26,465 nucleotides of DNA, taken from positions 1 through 26,465 of the IMG/VR virus record IMGVR_UViG_3300030060_002131. One strand, given 5' to 3'. Source of the stretch: a virus. Position numbers and translations under genes: made by a program. Positions 19,495 to 26,465 of this stretch are shown here, one piece after another. Position 1 is the stretch's first letter. Each line of letters begins with the position of its first letter. Under the pieces are notes generated by a model, which made no database searches, was not told the DNA's origin, and worked only from the letters and a program-made list of their open reading frames with translations.

Positions 19495-20437
19495 GCTTAC
19501 AAGAGACGATATACCAACTGCATCTATATCACCTTACTTATTCAATGAGTATAAGTATGGCTCTAGGAATGAAGCACTCAAAAGATGTATAGATGCAAAG
19601 CATGGCAAGCCTACAAGGTTTGAGCAGACTGGCATACAAAGAATGGGCGATGTTTTAGAAGCACCCTGCATAAAAGAAGCTTGCAACATACTAGGCTTGA
19701 CCGATGTGCAAACAGATATTAATGTTGTAGCTAAACATCCATATTTGTTATTTGAAGCATCATTAGATGGTATGGCTCATGCAGACAACTTAGTCATAAA
19801 AGAGGATGAAAGCAAAGGTATTTATTTACCAAATGCGACAGAGGTGAAGCTGGATGGTCAAGGGGTAGTTGAGAATAAGGTTACAAATTCATATCCTGAA
19901 AGCCCTCCAGCTTTGTGGCGTGGCGTGCTTCAACTGCAAGCACAAATGGAGTGTGCTGGTGTTGATTGGGGTGTTTTATGTGTATTGTACCAATCAACAA
20001 CTTTTAGAATATTTGTCTATAAACGTGATCCTGCTTTCGCAGACAAGCTTAGAGATGCAGTAGAAGATTGGAATGGGCGTATCAAAGAAGAGGATTACTT
20101 TCCATTTGAGCTTTTAGATGACAAGCGTAATGATGGTGTTTTAGTGCATCCAGAGGCCACAGAAGAAGAGCTTATTGATTTAGATATGTTATGTGAGGAT
20201 CATGCAAAACAGATAATGTTATCAGATGAAGCTATAAAAAATGCAAAAGCAAATAAACAAAGAGCAACAGCAGCGTTGATGGAAGCTATGGGAAATCATA
20301 GCAAGGCAAAAGCAGGAAATTATGTTATAAATTGGGGTATGACACATTACAAAGCAAAAGAAGAAAAGATAGTGCCAGCAAAAGAAGCGTATAGTGTTAG
20401 AAGAAAGACTTTAAGTATTAAGAAATATGAGGACTAA
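19484..20437 (+). CDS. YqaJ-like phage recombination exonuclease
   Basis: About 317 residues from ATG 19484 (a TTG start at 19472 is possible). Motifs of the YqaJ/lambda-exonuclease PD-(D/E)xK fold appear in order: RMGDVLEAPCI (Glu59), LLFEASLDGMA (Asp95), GQGVVENKV (Glu130 and Lys132), then WRGVLQLQAQMECAG. The Asp...Glu-x-Lys set is the metal-binding catalytic core. The enzyme is expected to degrade one strand of double-stranded ends to prepare DNA for annealing. No Erf/RecT/Bet annealing partner is recognised nearby; the SSB-like protein at 21254 might serve. The C-terminal 90 residues are helical and Lys/Ala-rich. Confidence 0.85.
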   Translation: MVGKLTRDDIPTASISPYLFNEYKYGSRNEALKRCIDAKHGKPTRFEQTGIQRMGDVLEAPCIKEACNILGLTDVQTDINVVAKHPYLLFEASLDGMAHADNLVIKEDESKGIYLPNATEVKLDGQGVVENKVTNSYPESPPALWRGVLQLQAQMECAGVDWGVLCVLYQSTTFRIFVYKRDPAFADKLRDAVEDWNGRIKEEDYFPFELLDDKRNDGVLVHPEATEEELIDLDMLCEDHAKQIMLSDEAIKNAKANKQRATAALMEAMGNHSKAKAGNYVINWGMTHYKAKEEKIVPAKEAYSVRRKTLSIKKYED

Positions 20438-20645
20438 AACAACAGACTTTATGGATGATAAGACTATGGAGAAAGTAGGCAAGGAGGCTATTTGGGTATA
20501 TAAAGATGTGCATAAAGAATTAAAGGTGCTGTCAGCACAGACTGGTAAACCGATGGGACAGCTTGCAGAATACTTTTTAAAGCTAGGTATAAATTCTGTA
20601 AAACATGATTTGACAAATGTTGATTTTGACGTGGAGGGTTTATAA
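20427..20645 (+). CDS. Small 72-residue protein, possible ribbon-helix-helix type
   Basis: It starts at ATG 20427, 11 bases before the exonuclease stop, and ends at TAA just before the next ATG. The central segment VYKDVHKELKVLSAQTGKPM, followed by GQLAEYFLKLGI, fits the layout of a small MetJ/Arc-type ribbon-helix-helix DNA-binding fold (short strand, helix, turn, helix). Such proteins are common small phage regulators. The family call is only by pattern. It sits in the middle of the recombination genes and has no promoter of its own. Confidence 0.55.
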   Translation: MRTKTTDFMDDKTMEKVGKEAIWVYKDVHKELKVLSAQTGKPMGQLAEYFLKLGINSVKHDLTNVDFDVEGL

Positions 20646-21065
20646 ATGGTAAACGCTAGAGCTAAAGGCGCTGCGTTTGAAAGAGAGTGTGCTAAGCAAA
20701 TAAATGCGATGCTAGAAACAACACATGTACAAGATAGAGTCAGCAGAAACCTCAACCAATACCAAGAAAAAAACCAACCAGATTTAAAGTTACGTTACCT
20801 TTATTTTGAGTGCAAAAATTATGCAAGAAGTAGCAATAATTGGTACAAAGATAAATGGTGGCAACAAGTTTGTGAAGCAGCAGGTGATGATAATGTACCT
20901 ATTTTGATTTTTAAGTTTAACCACTTACCAGTCAGAGTAGCTTTCCCCTTGAGTATGATTAACTCTAATATAAGCGATAGAGAATTGCATCATCCTGTTG
21001 CCTTCACATCTTTTGAGCAGTTTTTAGATATCCTTAAATATGAGGTTAGTTCATGGAAGAACTAA
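20646..21065 (+). CDS. PD-(D/E)xK nuclease, Holliday junction resolvase-like
   Basis: A 139-residue protein. MVNARAKGAAFERECAKQIN at the N-terminus (Glu12), NQPDLKLR (Asp46) and YLYFECKNYAR (Glu55-x-Lys57) form the complete PD-(D/E)xK metal-binding set in the order used by archaeal-type resolvases and related phage nucleases. Lys7 is also typical. The basic middle region suits DNA binding. It follows the YqaJ exonuclease, so a role in resolving branched recombination or packaging intermediates is plausible. An alternative is a general phage endonuclease of the same fold. Its 3' end overlaps the next gene by 13 bases. Confidence 0.8.
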   Translation: MVNARAKGAAFERECAKQINAMLETTHVQDRVSRNLNQYQEKNQPDLKLRYLYFECKNYARSSNNWYKDKWWQQVCEAAGDDNVPILIFKFNHLPVRVAFPLSMINSNISDRELHHPVAFTSFEQFLDILKYEVSSWKN

Positions 21066-21241
21066 TTTACTTTGATCCAGAGTTTGAGAAGTTTTGCTGG
21101 GACGAGTTTTGCAAAGCTAGGAGAAGTGCGGAGTATTTAGGCATGTCCACAATAGAAGATTTTAGTAGTTTTAAGGACACTAATGCTAGTGTTCTTAAGG
21201 CAGTTTTTGACAGTATTGCTACCAAAAAGGTAGTTCATTAA
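21053..21241 (+). CDS. Small 62-residue hypothetical protein
   Basis: ATG 21053 lies 13 bases before the resolvase-like stop, and TAA at 21239-21241 is part of the next gene's ribosome binding region. The product is aromatic- and acid-rich near the N-terminus (LIYFDPEFEKFCWDEFCKAR) and continues with helical character. Two Cys residues lie near residues 15 and 20. I do not recognise a family. Tight overlap on one side and immediate Shine-Dalgarno on the other support a real gene. Confidence 0.65.
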   Translation: MEELIYFDPEFEKFCWDEFCKARRSAEYLGMSTIEDFSSFKDTNASVLKAVFDSIATKKVVH

Positions 21242-21253
21242 AGGAGATATATT

Positions 21254-21847
21254 ATGGAAATACTACAAGAAAGCGATAATTCAATTTATCTTAAATTTAT
21301 AAGCAAAGAAAAGACTTTTAAGCTTGCAGACCAGGAGTGTAAGTTTAAATATATGCAACTTGATCTAGATACATTGCAAACAGGTTGGGGAAGATATGAA
21401 GGTGGCTATGAGTTTGTCTGGGATGATGTTGTTGGTGCTAAATCACAACCACCAGCAGGACATGGTTGGACAAGAGCCTTTTCTATCTGGGTTATGGTTG
21501 ATGGCGTAGAGGATAGACCTTTACTGTGGCAACGCAACAGCGTGAATGAGTATCAAACAATGTTAGAGATACTTAGAGGGTGTTACAACCAATGGAATGA
21601 GAAAAAACCTGCGCTACCATGTTTTGCATTTACTGGCACAGAAACTATAAAAGGTAAGATGAATGACTTTAACAGAGCTAACTTTTCTTTTGTAGATTGG
21701 AAACCAAGAAAAGATACGTTTGTTATTCCTACGTTTGATGCACCCAACGATGATGATTGGGTTAGTCCAAATGCAGGCCTTAGCGATAAGGTCGATGAAC
21801 AGGTCGCTAAAAGCGGTGATATTACAGAAGATGATTTGCCATTTTAG
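21254..21847 (+). CDS. Putative single-stranded DNA-binding protein with SSB-type acidic tip
   Basis: A 197-residue protein with the strongest ribosome binding site of the block (AAGGAG at 21241-21246, seven bases before ATG). The body is rich in aromatic residues and beta-strand patterns (YMQLDLDTLQTGWGRYEGGY, WTRAFSIWVMVDG), compatible with an OB-fold. The C-terminus is acidic and ends GDITEDDLPF, closely matching the D-D-D-(I/L)-P-F tip with which bacterial SSB and functional phage analogues recruit replication proteins. Position between recombination nucleases and primase-helicase fits. The body does not match E. coli SSB by eye, so it is probably a diverged phage family. Confidence 0.65.
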   Translation: MEILQESDNSIYLKFISKEKTFKLADQECKFKYMQLDLDTLQTGWGRYEGGYEFVWDDVVGAKSQPPAGHGWTRAFSIWVMVDGVEDRPLLWQRNSVNEYQTMLEILRGCYNQWNEKKPALPCFAFTGTETIKGKMNDFNRANFSFVDWKPRKDTFVIPTFDAPNDDDWVSPNAGLSDKVDEQVAKSGDITEDDLPF

Positions 21848-21850
21848 ATC

Positions 21851-23722
21851 ATGCAAGATAAGTGGGTTAATGTAGCTCCACAGATTGCTTTAGAGGTATT
21901 AGGAGAACCGAAAACTAAAACAGATAAAGAATGGCGGTGGGGATCAAAGGGAAGCTTTGTATTTAATAAAGAAGCAGGTACTTTCTTTGACTTTGAAAAT
22001 GACGAAGGCGGTGGAGTAGCCTGGTTATTAGAGACAAAGAATGTAGATAAAGACATTTTGCAAAAGTTTGATTTAGGCTTTGCACCAAATGGCAACAGCA
22101 TAATTACCTCCACTGAAAAAGATGTTGCCATAGCTACTCCTAACATAGTGGGTGCAAAGCCGATCTCTAGAGATAAATTACTACAGCTTTGGTCTGAAGC
22201 TGTTGTTAAGCTTAAATACAATGACAGCTTTATAGTCTTACGCTTTCCAGACAATCATCCTATAAAACAAAAGTACGCACCTTTTACTAAGGTTGGTGAT
22301 AGTTGGGTAATGCGTAGACCAGAAGGCAAGTTGCCTATCTATAGCGAGTGCAATTATCCCAACAAGCCAGTCCTCATCAACGAGGGTGAGAAGGCGTGCT
22401 TGGGAGCAGGCAAGCTGTATGATGGCGATGTTGCCTGTTGGCATGGAGGAGCTAAGTCTTGGGAGAAGTCAGACTGGTCGCCTGTATTTAATAGAGATGT
22501 TTATATCTTTCCAGACAATGATGATGTGGGTAGGGAAGCTGCGTGGGAGTTAGGCAAGTATTTAAAGAAGAACGGATGTAGTGTAAGGATAGCTTTACCA
22601 CCAAAAGACTTTGCGGATAAGGACGATCTTTGGGATGCCAATGAATCTAATTACTTTGATAATAGTTTTGCTTTAGAACAATATATTAAAGGTAATCAAA
22701 TGTTACCACCCAAAAGCGATATTTACTTCCAACGCATCGATGAAGTTATGGCGGAAGTAAAAGAGCCTGATTGGTTAATACAAGATATGTTTGAAAGAGA
22801 ATCAGTTATGTCTATCTTTGGTGCTGCTAAATCAGGTAAATCTTTTGTAGCTATCGCTATGGCGTGTGCTGTTGCTATGGGTGAAGAATTTTATGGAAGT
22901 GCAAGTAAACAGGCAACTACACTTTACCTCTGTGGAGAGGGGAAGCGTGGAGTTGGTCGCCGCATTAAAGCTTATGAGCAATACTTTAATAAAGACTTAT
23001 CAAAAGCACCGCTTCTATTATCTAACAGAGGTGCAAGGATTACAGAGGATGATGAGTTTGATAAGTTGTTGACAACTTGCAGAGAAATAGAGGAACAATA
23101 TGGAAGTATTGGTCTAATTATTTTTGATACATTTCAACGAAACTTCTCAGGTAATGAGAACTCTAGTGAAGATGTAGGACTATTTATACAAAGATTAGAT
23201 AAGTTAGTTGCTGAGTTTGGTGCTACTTGTTGTTTTGTGCATCATACAGGTCATGGATCAAATGCAAGAGCTAGAGGATCAAGTGTTATTCAGGCTAGTT
23301 TAGATTATGAGTTTAAGGTTAGTAGAGACGATATTATTGATGAGATGTGGGTTGATTTTGAGCAGACACTTAACAAAGACGGAATGGGTATGGCTAAGAT
23401 GCAATATAAGTTCCACGAAGTAAATCTGCTTGGCTTTGATAACCTAACAAGTGGTGTACTGATACCTGAAGATAAGCCAATAGATATTAAAGAATCTACA
23501 GTTAATGAAGAAACTATAAAAGCACTTATAACTGTAGCTGAACAGCAATGCCCTGATGATCCTGTAAGTGTATGGTTAAATGCAGCAGACATAGAGGGTA
23601 TATTGAAGGTAAAACGTAAGACTGCTCAAGGAAGATTGAAGCAATTAAAGGAAAAAGGATTGGTGCATTACAAAGAAAATTATGGTTATCAGGCTAAAAA
23701 ATGGGATGAAGGAGTGTTCTGA
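21851..23722 (+). CDS. Primase-helicase: Toprim plus RepA-like AAA ATPase plus C-terminal winged helix
   Basis: A 623-residue replication protein. The N-terminal 100 residues contain GSFVFNKEAGTFFDFENDEG, resembling a primase N-domain, but no zinc-binding Cys/His set is visible. A Toprim domain follows: VLINEGEKACLGAG (Glu178 and Glu180) and YIFPDNDDVGREAA (Asp222 and Asp224). A RecA-like ATPase (RepA/AAA_25 type) has Walker A GAAKSGKS at 324-331, Walker B GLIIFDT (Asp426) and a conserved CCFVHHTGHGSNARARGSS segment. The last 80 residues contain VKRKTAQGRLKQLKEKGLVH, a winged-helix-like DNA-binding end. It probably primes and unwinds phage DNA. The stop overlaps the methyltransferase start by one base. 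Confidence 0.88.
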   Translation: MQDKWVNVAPQIALEVLGEPKTKTDKEWRWGSKGSFVFNKEAGTFFDFENDEGGGVAWLLETKNVDKDILQKFDLGFAPNGNSIITSTEKDVAIATPNIVGAKPISRDKLLQLWSEAVVKLKYNDSFIVLRFPDNHPIKQKYAPFTKVGDSWVMRRPEGKLPIYSECNYPNKPVLINEGEKACLGAGKLYDGDVACWHGGAKSWEKSDWSPVFNRDVYIFPDNDDVGREAAWELGKYLKKNGCSVRIALPPKDFADKDDLWDANESNYFDNSFALEQYIKGNQMLPPKSDIYFQRIDEVMAEVKEPDWLIQDMFERESVMSIFGAAKSGKSFVAIAMACAVAMGEEFYGSASKQATTLYLCGEGKRGVGRRIKAYEQYFNKDLSKAPLLLSNRGARITEDDEFDKLLTTCREIEEQYGSIGLIIFDTFQRNFSGNENSSEDVGLFIQRLDKLVAEFGATCCFVHHTGHGSNARARGSSVIQASLDYEFKVSRDDIIDEMWVDFEQTLNKDGMGMAKMQYKFHEVNLLGFDNLTSGVLIPEDKPIDIKESTVNEETIKALITVAEQQCPDDPVSVWLNAADIEGILKVKRKTAQGRLKQLKEKGLVHYKENYGYQAKKWDEGVF

Positions 23723-24249
23723 TGATACCTTTTCCAAATAAAAAATATAATATTATTTACGCTGATCCACCTTGGGATGTTAAGAGGGGATGTGATTGGA
23801 ATAGTAATGGTAAAACAAGAGAATTACCTTATCCAACAATGGATATAGAAAATATAAAAAAATTACCTATAAGTGATATAGCTGAAAAGAATTGCAAATT
23901 ATATATGTGGACAATTAACAAATATTTAGATCAATCTTTTGATGTCATAAAAGCTTGGGGGTTTAAATACAGTACAACTTTAATTTGGGTTAAAAAACCA
24001 AGAGGATTAGGTTTAGGCGGCACTTTTACAACAAATGTTGAATATCTTTTGTTTGCCTATAAAGGTAAGCAAAACGCACAAAAAAAATATGATAGTTGTT
24101 GGTGGGAATTGCCTAGAAGTTATCACAGCAAAAAACCTGACTTTTTTAGAGACATTATTGCGGAAACCTATGACAGCGAAGAAAAAAAGATAGAGCTTTT
24201 TGCTAGAAATAAATATAAAGGATGGGATTGTTGGGGTAATGAGGTTTAA
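23722..24249 (+). CDS. MT-A70 family adenine-N6 DNA methyltransferase
   Basis: A 175-residue protein starting one base into the previous stop. The catalytic DPPW motif lies at residues 15-18 in NIIYADPPWDV. MT-A70 marks follow: CKLYMWTINKYLDQSFDVIK, STTLIWVKKPRGLGLG, and the C-terminal EEKKIELFARNKYKGWDCWG. All blocks needed for the fold are present, though the protein is short. It probably methylates adenines in phage DNA to evade host restriction or to mark replication, with S-adenosylmethionine as donor. No cognate restriction enzyme is nearby, so it is an orphan methyltransferase. Confidence 0.92.
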   Translation: MIPFPNKKYNIIYADPPWDVKRGCDWNSNGKTRELPYPTMDIENIKKLPISDIAEKNCKLYMWTINKYLDQSFDVIKAWGFKYSTTLIWVKKPRGLGLGGTFTTNVEYLLFAYKGKQNAQKKYDSCWWELPRSYHSKKPDFFRDIIAETYDSEEKKIELFARNKYKGWDCWGNEV

Positions 24250-24253
24250 GTTA

Positions 24254-24403
24254 GTGGATATAAAAGTGGATAGATGTGGATATAAAGTGGATATAAATTG
24301 GCTATTTTCTATCCGAAATCAACATATAGTGGATATACTGGATATATATATACCTTGTATATATCCATGTATCCATAATGATCCAAGTTTTTTCATATAT
24401 CCA
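24254..24403 (+). repeat. Iteron-like GTGGATA repeat cluster in a gene-free stretch
   Basis: GTGGATA starts at 24254, 24266, 24276, 24287 and 24329, mostly extended to GTGGATATAAA. The first four starts are 12, 10 and 11 bp apart, about one helical turn each. The last is 42 bp further, about four turns. The right part has the complement form TATATCCA at 24360-24367 and 24396-24403, and TATCCA at 24370-24375. The 153-bp stretch lies right after replication genes and holds no credible gene, so an origin or an operator for a repeat-binding protein is possible. Confidence 0.65.
24339..24367 (+). other. Strong hairpin inside the repeat cluster
   Basis: TGGATATATA (24339-24348) pairs perfectly with TATATATCCA (24358-24367). 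A further G-T wobble and one A-T pair extend the stem to 24350/24356, leaving a five-base loop. The arms are one direct and one inverted copy of the repeat motif. No T tract follows, so it is not a typical terminator. In DNA it could extrude as a cruciform or bind a dimeric protein. Confidence 0.7.
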
Positions 24404-24906
24404 TGAAACAAATATATAAAGATAATGCTTTGTTGCAGATTAAGATACTTAGGAAGCTTGAATCTGAAATTGCAAACAAGTGGGGTGGTAAGAAAAGATT
24501 ATTAAAAATAATACCAAGCAATGTTGCATTAAAGTTTGAAAGAGCAGAGTGGATATTTAGAGAGTCATTAAAAGAACAAAATTATAAAAAGATATTTTCT
24601 ATGTGTGAGATGATGCAAAGAGCATATGATGCAATTATTGAAGCTGCTACAGATAATGGATATGTAGAGCTTGATCCAAATGTATCTTGCTACAAATACA
24701 ATAAAGATAAGTATGTCCTCATAGTTGGTAATGACTATGAGTTAAAAAATGTATATGATAAATATAAACAAGAACAAGACTGTATCATATTTAGTATTGA
24801 AGAATTGTTTAGATGTATTCCAGAACATTGCATAGATGCTAAAGAAGAACTTACACAAAGCAACCTTAGTCCAACTTTTAATAAAATAGATTATGTCAAA
24901 AGGTAG
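24403..24906 (+). CDS. Hypothetical 167-residue phage protein
   Basis: It starts at ATG 24403, within the last repeat copy of the upstream cluster; no good Shine-Dalgarno is visible. The N-terminal two-thirds is helical (LLQIKILRKLESEIANKWGG, then NVALKFERAEWIF). The C-terminal third has a strand-helix pattern (YVLIVGNDYELKNVYDKYKQ, then CIIFSIEELFRCIP). It may be a two-domain alpha/beta protein, but I do not recognise a family. The start inside the repeat array suggests its expression could be controlled by whatever binds there. It ends 14 bases into the next small gene. Confidence 0.7.
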   Translation: MKQIYKDNALLQIKILRKLESEIANKWGGKKRLLKIIPSNVALKFERAEWIFRESLKEQNYKKIFSMCEMMQRAYDAIIEAATDNGYVELDPNVSCYKYNKDKYVLIVGNDYELKNVYDKYKQEQDCIIFSIEELFRCIPEHCIDAKEELTQSNLSPTFNKIDYVKR

Positions 24907-25015
24907 TAAGCGCAGGCCAGAAGATAAAAAGAAAATAGATTTAAATTGGGATAAAATATTTAAGAATGACAAACTTGAAGAAAAGGATTATCAACTATAC
25001 AAAAATCATAAGTAA
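24893..25015 (+). CDS. Small basic 40-residue protein
   Basis: ATG 24893 overlaps the end of the previous gene, and TAA lies at 25013-25015. The product begins MSKGSKRRPEDKKKIDLNWD and has a basic N-terminus with one Trp near residue 19. Short proteins starting SKGSKRRPED occur, to my recollection, in several unrelated tailed phages, which supports a real gene; this is not checked. Basic charge suggests nucleic-acid contact. The function is unknown. Confidence 0.65.
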   Translation: MSKGSKRRPEDKKKIDLNWDKIFKNDKLEEKDYQLYKNHK

Positions 25016-25106
25016 AATAATTGATAATCATGTTGAGAGATCATTACAAAAGCAAGAAGATAGATTACATAGGAGAGCATTAGATGAAAAAGATACAAAG
25101 TATTGA
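24966..25106 (+). CDS. Possible 46-residue protein bridging the gap before the DUF6378-like gene
   Basis: An open frame from ATG 24966 to TGA at 25104-25106 overlaps the 40-residue gene by 50 bases and the next gene by 23. It begins MTNLKKRIINYTKIISKIID and continues with a charged helical part (RSLQKQEDRLHRRALDEK). It would fill the 68-bp gap at 25016-25083. There is no clear Shine-Dalgarno. A 17-codon frame at 25030-25083 is a competing but weaker reading. Confidence 0.35.
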   Translation: MTNLKKRIINYTKIISKIIDNHVERSLQKQEDRLHRRALDEKDTKY

Positions 25107-25347
25107 TAAGCTTTTAGCTGAAAAAGCAAAAGATTATGGTGAGCCAATAGATTATATGAGTCAGCTTGCTCAGATATGGGGTGCTATGTTGGGTAAGACA
25201 ATCAGCACAAATCAAGTAGTTGCTATGTATGTAGCTGCTAAAGCATTGCGTGGCTACAATAAACCAGATCATTTTGATAGTTTCTTAGACATAAAAGGAT
25301 ATGGCGCTATCGGTTGCAACCTCATAGATGAAATAGAGCAGGAATGA
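25084..25347 (+). CDS. DUF6378-like phage protein
   Basis: An 87-residue helical protein with ribosome binding site AGGAGA (25071-25076). LLAEKAKDYGEPIDYMSQLA, then IWGAMLGKTISTNQVVAMYV, then a Lys-x-x-Arg segment and DHFDSFLDIKGYGAIG form the pattern of a phage domain often annotated DUF6378, related in layout to MazG-like all-helical folds (conserved YG, then K..R, then D...D..GY). MazG-type proteins hydrolyse nucleotides, but the metal-binding E-x-x-E set is not evident here, so enzymatic activity is uncertain. Its stop overlaps the next start (ATGA). Confidence 0.75.
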   Translation: MKKIQSIDKLLAEKAKDYGEPIDYMSQLAQIWGAMLGKTISTNQVVAMYVAAKALRGYNKPDHFDSFLDIKGYGAIGCNLIDEIEQE

Positions 25348-25508
25348 GTAAGTTAATTAGTGTTACTATTTTAAAGAAGAAAATTGATAGTGGTGCATCA
25401 AGCTATGACTGTGCAAGAACTTTTGGTGTTAGTCAGTCAACAGTAATTAGAAGAGCTAAACAATATGGTTTACAGTTTAAAGGTAAATCAACATGGAGAA
25501 ATCTATAA
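25344..25508 (+). CDS. Small helix-turn-helix DNA-binding protein
   Basis: A 54-residue protein with ATG 25344 overlapping the previous TGA, and TAA at 25506-25508 overlapping the next ATG. Residues about 18-43 (ASSYDCARTFGVSQSTVIRR, then AKQYGL) form a clear helix-turn-helix of the Hin/resolvase or transposase type: Ala-x3-Gly in the first turn, then Ser-x-Ser-Thr-Val-x-Arg in the recognition helix. The family could be a mini-regulator or a small-terminase-like DNA-binding subunit, given that packaging genes probably follow outside the window. Which one cannot be decided here. Confidence 0.75.
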   Translation: MSKLISVTILKKKIDSGASSYDCARTFGVSQSTVIRRAKQYGLQFKGKSTWRNL

Positions 25509-26119
25509 TGGCTAAAGTAAGTATTGAGACAAATGCTAAAGATGTTAAAAGGCGTTTGGGATTATTTAAAAGCAGACATATTCCTATAGTGCTTTCTGAA
25601 TCTATCAACGAAGTTGGTATTAAGTCTGTAAATGCTATGCGATCACAAATACAAAAGAAGCTTGATAGACCAACACCATTTACTATTAAATCACCTAGCA
25701 TAGTAAAAGCGAGACCAATGAAGAATCCCTTTGCAACTGTTTTTATACATAATGCGGCTCAAAAATATTTATCAAAGTTATTTGAGGGTGGCGTATCTGT
25801 TCCAAATAAGTCTAAGATACCTGTACCATATACAGCAGGCGGACATATATCATTGAATAAATATGGTAATATTAGAGGTAAAAGATCAGGACTTGCTAAA
25901 GGTAAAAAAGACTTTATTGCTAATATAAAAGGTGTTGAGGGTGTTTATAGACGAGCAGGTGGCAAAAGAAATCCGCACGTTAAGTTGCTGATTGGTTTTG
26001 AGAGTTCTGTTACATATAGAAAAACTTTGGAGTTTTTTAAAACAATAGAAGGTGTAGTCAAAAACAATATAGGCAAAGCAATTGATAAAAATATAAAAGA
26101 AGCATTTAGGTCATTATGA
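25508..26119 (+). CDS. Minor tail protein Z-like / tail completion protein
   Basis: I chose ATG 25508 (203 residues), which overlaps the HTH gene stop, over an upstream ATG at 25493. The segment MRSQIQKKLDRPTPFTIKSP, followed by PFATVFIHNAAQKYLSKLFE and GGHISLNKYGNIRGKRSG, resembles lambda gpZ-type minor tail proteins (Arg-Pro-x-Pro-Phe-Thr, then a Gln-x-Tyr-Leu, then Asn-x-(Y/F)-Gly-Asn). The protein is very basic. In lambda, Z lies among the head-tail completion genes; here it stands apart, after the replication block and probably before the packaging genes. The assignment is by motif recognition and needs a profile search. Confidence 0.6.
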   Translation: MAKVSIETNAKDVKRRLGLFKSRHIPIVLSESINEVGIKSVNAMRSQIQKKLDRPTPFTIKSPSIVKARPMKNPFATVFIHNAAQKYLSKLFEGGVSVPNKSKIPVPYTAGGHISLNKYGNIRGKRSGLAKGKKDFIANIKGVEGVYRRAGGKRNPHVKLLIGFESSVTYRKTLEFFKTIEGVVKNNIGKAIDKNIKEAFRSL

Positions 26120-26418
26120 ATATAGCCATAGACTATGACAACACCTACACCTTAGATAAAAAAATTTGGAATCAAGTAATTAATACATTTTTGAATAATG
26201 GACATAAAGTTTTTTGTGTTACCAAAAGATATGAACACATTGCAGACGATATAAGACAGGATATGCAAATACCTATAATTTACGCAACAAAATCTAAACT
26301 AGAAGCAACATTGCAAAAAGATATAAGGATAGATATATGGATAGACGATAAGCCACAAACAATTTATCCGTATATAAGAGCTAGAAAGCCTTTAAATAAA
26401 GGCTTTGCGAGGTATTAG
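26116..26418 (+). CDS. HAD-like phosphatase, small
   Basis: A 100-residue protein overlapping the previous gene by four bases (ATGA). MNIAIDYDNTYTLD carries the HAD motif I Asp6-x-Asp8. VFCVTKR supplies a Thr (36) for motif II, IIYATKSKLEA a Lys (59 or 61) for motif III, and IDIWIDDKP the motif IV Asp-Asp (77-78). The protein is at the short end for HAD enzymes and has no cap domain, so it is probably a minimal phosphatase acting on a nucleotide or polynucleotide end; the substrate cannot be read from sequence. Such genes are common in tailed phages. Confidence 0.85.
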   Translation: MNIAIDYDNTYTLDKKIWNQVINTFLNNGHKVFCVTKRYEHIADDIRQDMQIPIIYATKSKLEATLQKDIRIDIWIDDKPQTIYPYIRARKPLNKGFARY

Positions 26419-26420
26419 TT

Positions 26421-26465
26421 TTGCGTAGGTTCTTTCTAGACAAACTATCAACGGTTATTCGTGAT
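26421..26465 (+). CDS. Possible next gene, 3'-truncated by the window end
   Basis: A TTG at 26421 sits nine bases after a GCGAGG ribosome binding site (26406-26411), a form also used at 1565. The frame stays open to the window end and encodes a basic start (MRRFFLDKLSTVIRD if TTG is read as Met). Fifteen codons are too few to name a product. Confidence 0.4.
   Translation, partial: MRRFFLDKLSTVIRD

Follow-up and report, generated by a model that had tools for sequence, protein, structure and literature searches.

Origins of replication that lie beside the gene of an initiator helicase are already known, as in the crr region of P4, in SaPI and PICI elements and in pRN1. The alpha protein of P4 unites a primase, a helicase and a winged-helix origin-binding domain in one polypeptide (PMC4234260). 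In SaPI and PICI elements the C-terminal domain of the initiator helicase recognises repeats downstream of its own gene (PMC7581432, PMC6092414); for the SaPI and SCCmec helicases the repeats read by this domain are described as following the gene or operon immediately (PMC7581432), and PICI origins are described as two repeat sets around an AT-rich region (PMC6092414). In the archaeal plasmid pRN1 a large stem-loop needed for replication is found directly 3' of the gene for a primase-helicase with a C-terminal winged helix, and the oriV of the plasmid RSF1010 is described as combining a helicase of the RepA type with repeats and with stem-loops at which priming starts (both PMC4234260). The RepA treated in PMC7157519 is of another kind, and the initiator treated in PMC7145576 is a RepA_N protein. 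A search of titles and abstract openings, which mostly covered papers outside subscription journals, found no description of a repeat-hairpin layout for RepA-like helicases.

The window analysed here, i.e., the whole stretch of DNA, is an entire IMG/VR record of a marine phage with a length of 26,465 bases and without a completeness estimate. It contains at positions 24254–24403 a block of repeats around a hairpin that, judging from sequence comparison, is very probably the replication origin of the phage, bound by the winged helix of the primase-helicase encoded upstream. The observed basis of this reading comprises the anatomy of the block, its conservation, the concerted change of all its copies among relatives and their co-variation with the winged helix.

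On the plus strand, the word GTGGATA occurs in four exact copies at 24254–24260, 24266–24272, 24276–24282 and 24287–24293, which follow each other in steps of 12, 10 and 11 bp, and in a fifth copy at 24329, 42 bp or about four helical turns further on. An exact word search thereby bears out the five copies and the phasing given in a preliminary description of this DNA, which had undercounted the copies overall, since it missed the TGGATA that starts at 24339 as well as four inverted copies (24310, 24362, 24370 and 24398). The inverted copy at 24310–24314 (minus strand) is partial, TATCC, and is conserved in the 12 aligned relatives. The left arm of the hairpin (24330–24348, plus strand) holds two TGGATA at 24330 and 24339 with a bulge at 24338, the right arm (24358–24375, minus strand) holds two TATCCA at 24362 and 24370, and the apex between them (24349–24357, assigned to neither strand) reads TATACCTTG, or CCTTTAGG in 5 of the 12 aligned rows. 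The stem described earlier is real and longer than the 12 pairs then counted, as 24330–24337 and 24339–24348 pair with 24358–24375 to give 18 pairs, one of them G-T, and a single bulge. A last inverted copy, TATCCA at 24398–24403 (minus strand), overlaps the ATG at 24403 of the next gene, as had been noted. Several short direct repeats at roughly helical spacing next to a proposed initiator gene, one mark of an iteron origin, are thus seen here.

The word is more frequent than in shuffled sequence. Exact GTGGATA occurs 8 times in the window compared with a mean of 2.4 in 100 shuffles (sd 1.5, largest 7), and TGGATA/TATCCA, counted on both strands, has 9 starts within 160 nt, whereas no 6-mer exceeded 5 copies in 60 dinucleotide shuffles of the whole window. 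In 500 shuffles of the block itself the largest 6-mer count was 5, compared with 8 in the real block. The claim that this is the only stretch of its kind in the window also held, the runner-up cluster having 5 copies when 6-mers with three or more different bases are counted. Folded as single-stranded DNA, the region is more stable than its shuffles (z = -2.4), with 4 of 200 being equally good.

The upstream gene (21851–23722, plus strand) encodes the proposed initiator, a primase-helicase of 623 aa with a weak Toprim domain, a RepA-like AAA_25 helicase domain (Pfam, E 6e-33) and a C-terminal winged helix; PHROG primase/helicase families match it, and its Toprim_3 match stays under the cut-off (23.6 of 27.2 bits). 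The proposed repeat reader, the winged-helix domain, corresponds to codons 546–623 (23486–23719, plus strand) and is based on a structural model and on co-variation. In an AlphaFold2 model built on 45 aligned C-terminal segments, a winged helix is predicted with a pLDDT of about 90–94 over residues 554–613, consisting of helices at 546–566, 578–585 and 589–601 followed by two strands. VIA-align gave Z scores of up to 9.1 against winged-helix proteins such as MntR and DtxR, while Foldseek returned no match for the model at E 0.001; the 50 VIA-align matches listed do not include the origin-binding domain of P4, an absence that excludes nothing. Between helicase and block lies an MT-A70 methyltransferase gene (23722–24249, plus strand; E 4e-24), and the block is followed by the gene of a 167-aa protein (24403–24906, plus strand), the constant downstream neighbour in relatives. 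This protein lacks a Pfam match, has one weak PHROG match to a function-unknown family and, despite a good model, has no structural match at E 0.001.

One protein of the window has a clear helicase domain, a modelled winged helix and a sub-cut-off Toprim match, the last accompanied by matches to PHROG primase families, and may resemble the P4 alpha protein in this make-up. The helicase of P4 belongs to another superfamily, SF3, whereas that of the window is of the RepA-like AAA_25 type. In the P4 record the crr repeats are annotated directly 3' of the primase gene and occur in both orientations. P4 differs further in having another repeat cluster, at ori, about 2 kb past the opposite end of that gene; a second cluster of the word is absent from the incomplete window and from the complete genomes of the phages CRP-406 and CRP-822. 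The arrangement resembles the rep-ori of PICI elements in that the repeats of the window's relatives lie directly 3' of the initiator gene, and differs in its single direct array, which stands next to a hairpin composed of copies of the word, and in its helicase class. Like pRN1, the window has a stem, here of 18 pairs, 3' of a replication gene, whereas pRN1 is described as lacking iterons and as having another type of primase and helicase (PMC4234260); an archaeo-eukaryotic primase with an SF3 helicase, as in pRN1, is not what the window encodes. The likeness to RSF1010 is one of description, with three separate proteins there compared with one in the window (PMC4234260).

Close relatives were collected by scans with the primase-helicase (21 loci) and with the 167-aa protein (10 loci). 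As the preliminary description had suggested looking for, the repeats recur: the block is present and near-invariant in 13/13 close relatives that span it (L002–L012, L016 and L018), and the contig of L014 stops 49 nt into it. In the clade alignment of twelve rows, window included, all cells of the 16 counted stem pairs (192/192) are standard; 13 pairs are invariant, two vary one-sidedly and in one pair both partners have changed, in three sequences, so that covariation of the stem within the close clade is real but thin. The usual arrangement in relatives has the block directly after the helicase stop, about 147 nt ahead of the next gene, and in eight more distant loci the distance from helicase to gene is 648–1,208 nt, consistent with inserts. 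The position after the helicase given earlier stands, while the methyltransferase gene, named together with it, is an optional insert outside the origin that within the close clade occurs only in the window and in L009. Most relatives have no gene in the methyltransferase slot, and the enzyme that fills it in L009 is 42% identical.

More distant relatives keep the layout and change the word. In L019, with a helicase 50% identical, the array consists of four repeats of the GGTTTGG type at 11-bp intervals, accompanied by one inverted copy, a hairpin with both arms built of its word, and a last inverted copy at the start of the next gene. A wider set was drawn from scans with the L019 helicase (best 80 of 101) and from a 167-aa protein alignment (71 loci), giving 151 loci with the downstream gene and enough preceding DNA, 88 of them distinct. 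By eye, about ten word classes can be told apart: GTGGATA, GGTTTGG, TTGGATTGG, GGTTGG/GGTCGG, TTGGGTG, TGGGGTA, AAGGAA/ACGGAA, GGAAGT/CGGAAG, CAGGGAA and TGTGTG. Measured against 11,856 control windows, the block has the top repeat count of its locus in 80/88 loci, the top hairpin energy in 52/88 and both in 48/88. A count barring two-letter words ranks the block first in only 30/87 loci because it misses the GGTTTGG arrays, and the figure of 80/88 comes from the count allowing such words. Only three direct copies are present in L058 and L074, compared with the usual four, and L159 has neither repeats nor a hairpin ahead of the downstream gene. A strict CC-T..A-GG hairpin is found in 14/88 viral loci and is thus recurrent, not universal.

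Which protein reads the word was addressed by comparing word distance (5-mer profiles) with protein distance in 81 of the 88 loci, those with a near-complete helicase and downstream gene. The words of array and hairpin change in concert (r = 0.94, 81 loci). The array correlates with helicase residues 1–130 at r = 0.38 and with 131–290 at 0.50, with the AAA domain (300–500) at 0.84, with 501–545 at 0.79 and with the winged helix (546–623) at 0.81, and with the downstream protein at 0.37. Partial correlations are 0.30 for the winged helix given AAA and 0.47 for AAA given the winged helix; they are 0.82 for the winged helix given the downstream protein and 0.41 for the reverse. The overall correlation hence picks the C-terminal half of the helicase without separating AAA from winged helix. 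These two are set apart by discordant pairs, which are non-independent and may go back to few swap events. L160 shares 92–94% identity in AAA with L166, L168, L169, L172 and L174 and only 36–39% in the winged helix, and the word similarity is 0.04; with L166 and L174 it is 92–95% identical over residues 1–500. Compared in 30-column blocks, L160 and L174 have an identity of 0.9–1.0 wherever the block starts no later than about residue 456; the two blocks that follow have 0.73 and 0.87, and from about residue 539 onward the values are 0.40–0.47. The winged helix of L133 is nearer to that of L160 (52%), and the two have a common word (0.81). Among the 323 pairs with AAA above 85%, word similarity falls below 0.2 in 65% of the 26 pairs with winged helices under 40% identical, compared with at most 1% in the other winged-helix identity groups. 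Against a one-to-one code speak 88 pairs (AAA >85%) with winged helices of 40–60% identity and similar words (mean 0.79). Since near-identical cores with differing winged helices have unrelated repeats, the winged helix is the likely reader, and among the three binders named in the preliminary description the comparison likewise points to the winged-helix end of the primase-helicase as the likely one. Its likening of the block to iteron origins gains support from the same data, as relatives keep the block and its words track the C-terminal half of the helicase.

Several other functions were weighed against an origin. The block could be an operator only, with the 167-aa protein, the small HTH protein (25344) or the RHH-like protein (20427) binding the repeats and controlling the gene at 24403, the start codon of which is overlapped by the last copy; several word classes have a copy close to the downstream start, and genes for small DNA-binding proteins lie in the neighbourhood. 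The words, however, follow the C-terminal half of the helicase (0.84, 0.81) and not the downstream protein (0.37), 57 pairs with downstream proteins more than 85% identical but AAA below 50% have unrelated words (mean similarity 0.06), and no promoter- or terminator-like pattern, sigma-70-like sites included, was found to overlap the block. An operator alone is insufficient because the repeats track the helicase and not the gene that they would regulate, which makes this reading improbable, and an operator role may exist as a second function beside the origin. Host DnaA starting replication here is extremely unlikely. The DnaA box has the consensus TTATNCACA, part of which GTGGATA resembles, and TGTGGATAT at 24275 matches it at 8 of 9 positions; DnaA boxes were rejected nonetheless because relatives carry unrelated words at the same place (GGTTTGG, GGAAGT, TTGGGTG, CAGGGAA and others, unlike DnaA boxes), which confines the resemblance to the close clade.

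A hairpin that works in the transcript, as an RNA element or terminator, is highly improbable and was rejected. The stem is stable, its one-sided changes within the clade are U-G, and G-T exceeds A-C on the coding strand (15 vs 8 cells), yet A-G and C-T mismatches are even (28 vs 26), and the mismatch count has no clear strand bias; an Rfam scan of the window gave 0 matches, no terminator-like site was seen, a T run follows 0/25 of the downstream apical hairpins of the genome loci treated below, and the matching direct repeats would be left unexplained. It is likewise very unlikely that an endonuclease nicks the hairpin to start rolling-circle replication, a type of origin once proposed for pRN1 (PMC4234260). 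A hairpin beside repeats and a one-signed GC skew would suit such an origin, but no HUH-type initiator was found among the 18 window proteins scanned, and the skew follows the coding strand and is unspecific. In two complete circular relatives and three long contigs the skew is monotone without a switch and tracks the coding strand, for which reason it was rejected as an origin marker and neither helps nor hurts the origin reading; the skew change elsewhere that the preliminary description would have taken as refutation was not seen, and the skew is as uninformative in favour of an origin.

If the block is the origin, the winged helix would bind the phased GTGGATA copies and their inverted partners, as the co-variation suggests, and binding would gather helicase subunits next to the hairpin. 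The hairpin would be the site of strand opening and of helicase and primase loading, as the analogy with P4, SaPI/PICI, SCCmec and pRN1 suggests. Each separated strand could fold back into a duplex that would still carry initiator sites, because both arms of the hairpin consist of copies of the binding word, and such foldback sites would allow helicase-primase loading on single strands. Binding, opening, loading and priming at the block are steps that we infer from sequence.

The layout is also found in isolated phages, among them the roseophages CRP-406 and CRP-822, which belong to the CRP-822-type group (PMC12629253); the words "iteron" and "repeat" have zero occurrences in the main text of that paper. 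Each of the two phages matches 9/32 window ORFs in collinear order. At the DNA level, window positions 20400–26465 showed no similarity to named phages. Both resemble the window in the repeat-hairpin layout after the helicase gene and differ in their words: in CRP-406, GCTGGA repeats with a hairpin follow the helicase directly, within an annotated small CDS, and CRP-822 has ten GTATAA copies and a hairpin. The CDS that spans the block of CRP-406 (CRP406_2, L119 161–487) may be partly a false gene. P4 aside, in which no CC-T..A-GG hairpin was found in crr, clusters lie directly downstream of the helicase in 7/12 named phages, i.e., CRP-406, CRP-822, 1N2-2 (GGTACA), CGphi29 (GGGACA), PB15 (GGTTCA), X2_25 (GCGTGACA) and Vibrio 1.076.O (GGACA). 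Squash has a repeat cluster inside the 3' end of the helicase gene, and MW202475, Mae-JY30, Hangman and BFK20 (4/12) have a related helicase without a cluster.

In prokaryotic genomes, a scan with the helicase alignment gave 139 loci, the best 80 of which were taken regardless of their downstream sequence, and 77 were testable. Against an earlier, mostly coding control, 34/77 had at least 6 copies of one 6-mer and exceeded all control windows of their own locus (1,725 in total), and hairpins were found in 26/77 compared with 9/797. Because repeats may be more frequent in intergenic DNA, the comparison was redone against intergenic windows: within 300 nt past the stop, at least 6 copies of one 6-mer occur in 36/77 loci compared with 1/152 windows, and a CC/GG-closed stem around a T..A loop in 25/77 compared with 1/152. 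About half of these 77 loci (from the best 80 of 139) have no repeat cluster. With the close relatives L189–L191 left out, 33 strong genome loci have 31 different top 6-mers, and hairpins such as CCCCTTTAGGGG, CCCCCTAAAGGGGG and CCCCCCTATAGGGGGG stand amid unrelated repeat words. L191, a SAR86 single-cell genome contig with a helicase 45% identical and an AGGGAA-type block, fits the SAR86 host predicted for subgroup V (PMC12629253).

A wider reading, for which we put the balance slightly below even, is that self-coded origins are widespread among phages and prophages of many bacterial groups: RepA-like helicase initiators would carry an array of a private word directly 3' of their gene, read by their own winged helix, often around a CC-T..A-GG hairpin where single-strand loading and priming would take place. 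Winged helix and array would be exchanged jointly as a compatibility module, and in the phage family of the window the hairpin arms repeat the word. Only a minority of environmental phages have a known origin, and the layout offers a rule for candidates, directly 3' of the RepA-like helicase gene. The pairing of winged helix and word could be decoded and tested with phage isolates and with the prophages that culturable bacteria carry. The recurrence of the hairpin beside unrelated words points to a common step, e.g., strand loading or priming, and the swap pattern suggests that origin compatibility of coinfecting phages may drive module exchange.

Some observations concern other parts of these genomes. 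An 87-aa protein of the window (25084–25347) matches Pfam DUF6378 and PHROG families named phosphofructokinase, a name that looks doubtful. Clusters of 5–10 copies of ATTTGC lie apart from the origin block in L110 (~8608), L148 (~7882), L137 (~5007), L143 and L136 (~5548), L161 (~4081) and L133 (~4248). CRP-406 (L119 28180–28330) and CRP-822 (L177 1–205) have in common a noncoding element before the small terminase gene, consisting of TTAGGTTCTTCTGGC followed by a GGGTAAT..GACC stretch, which is a possible packaging site.
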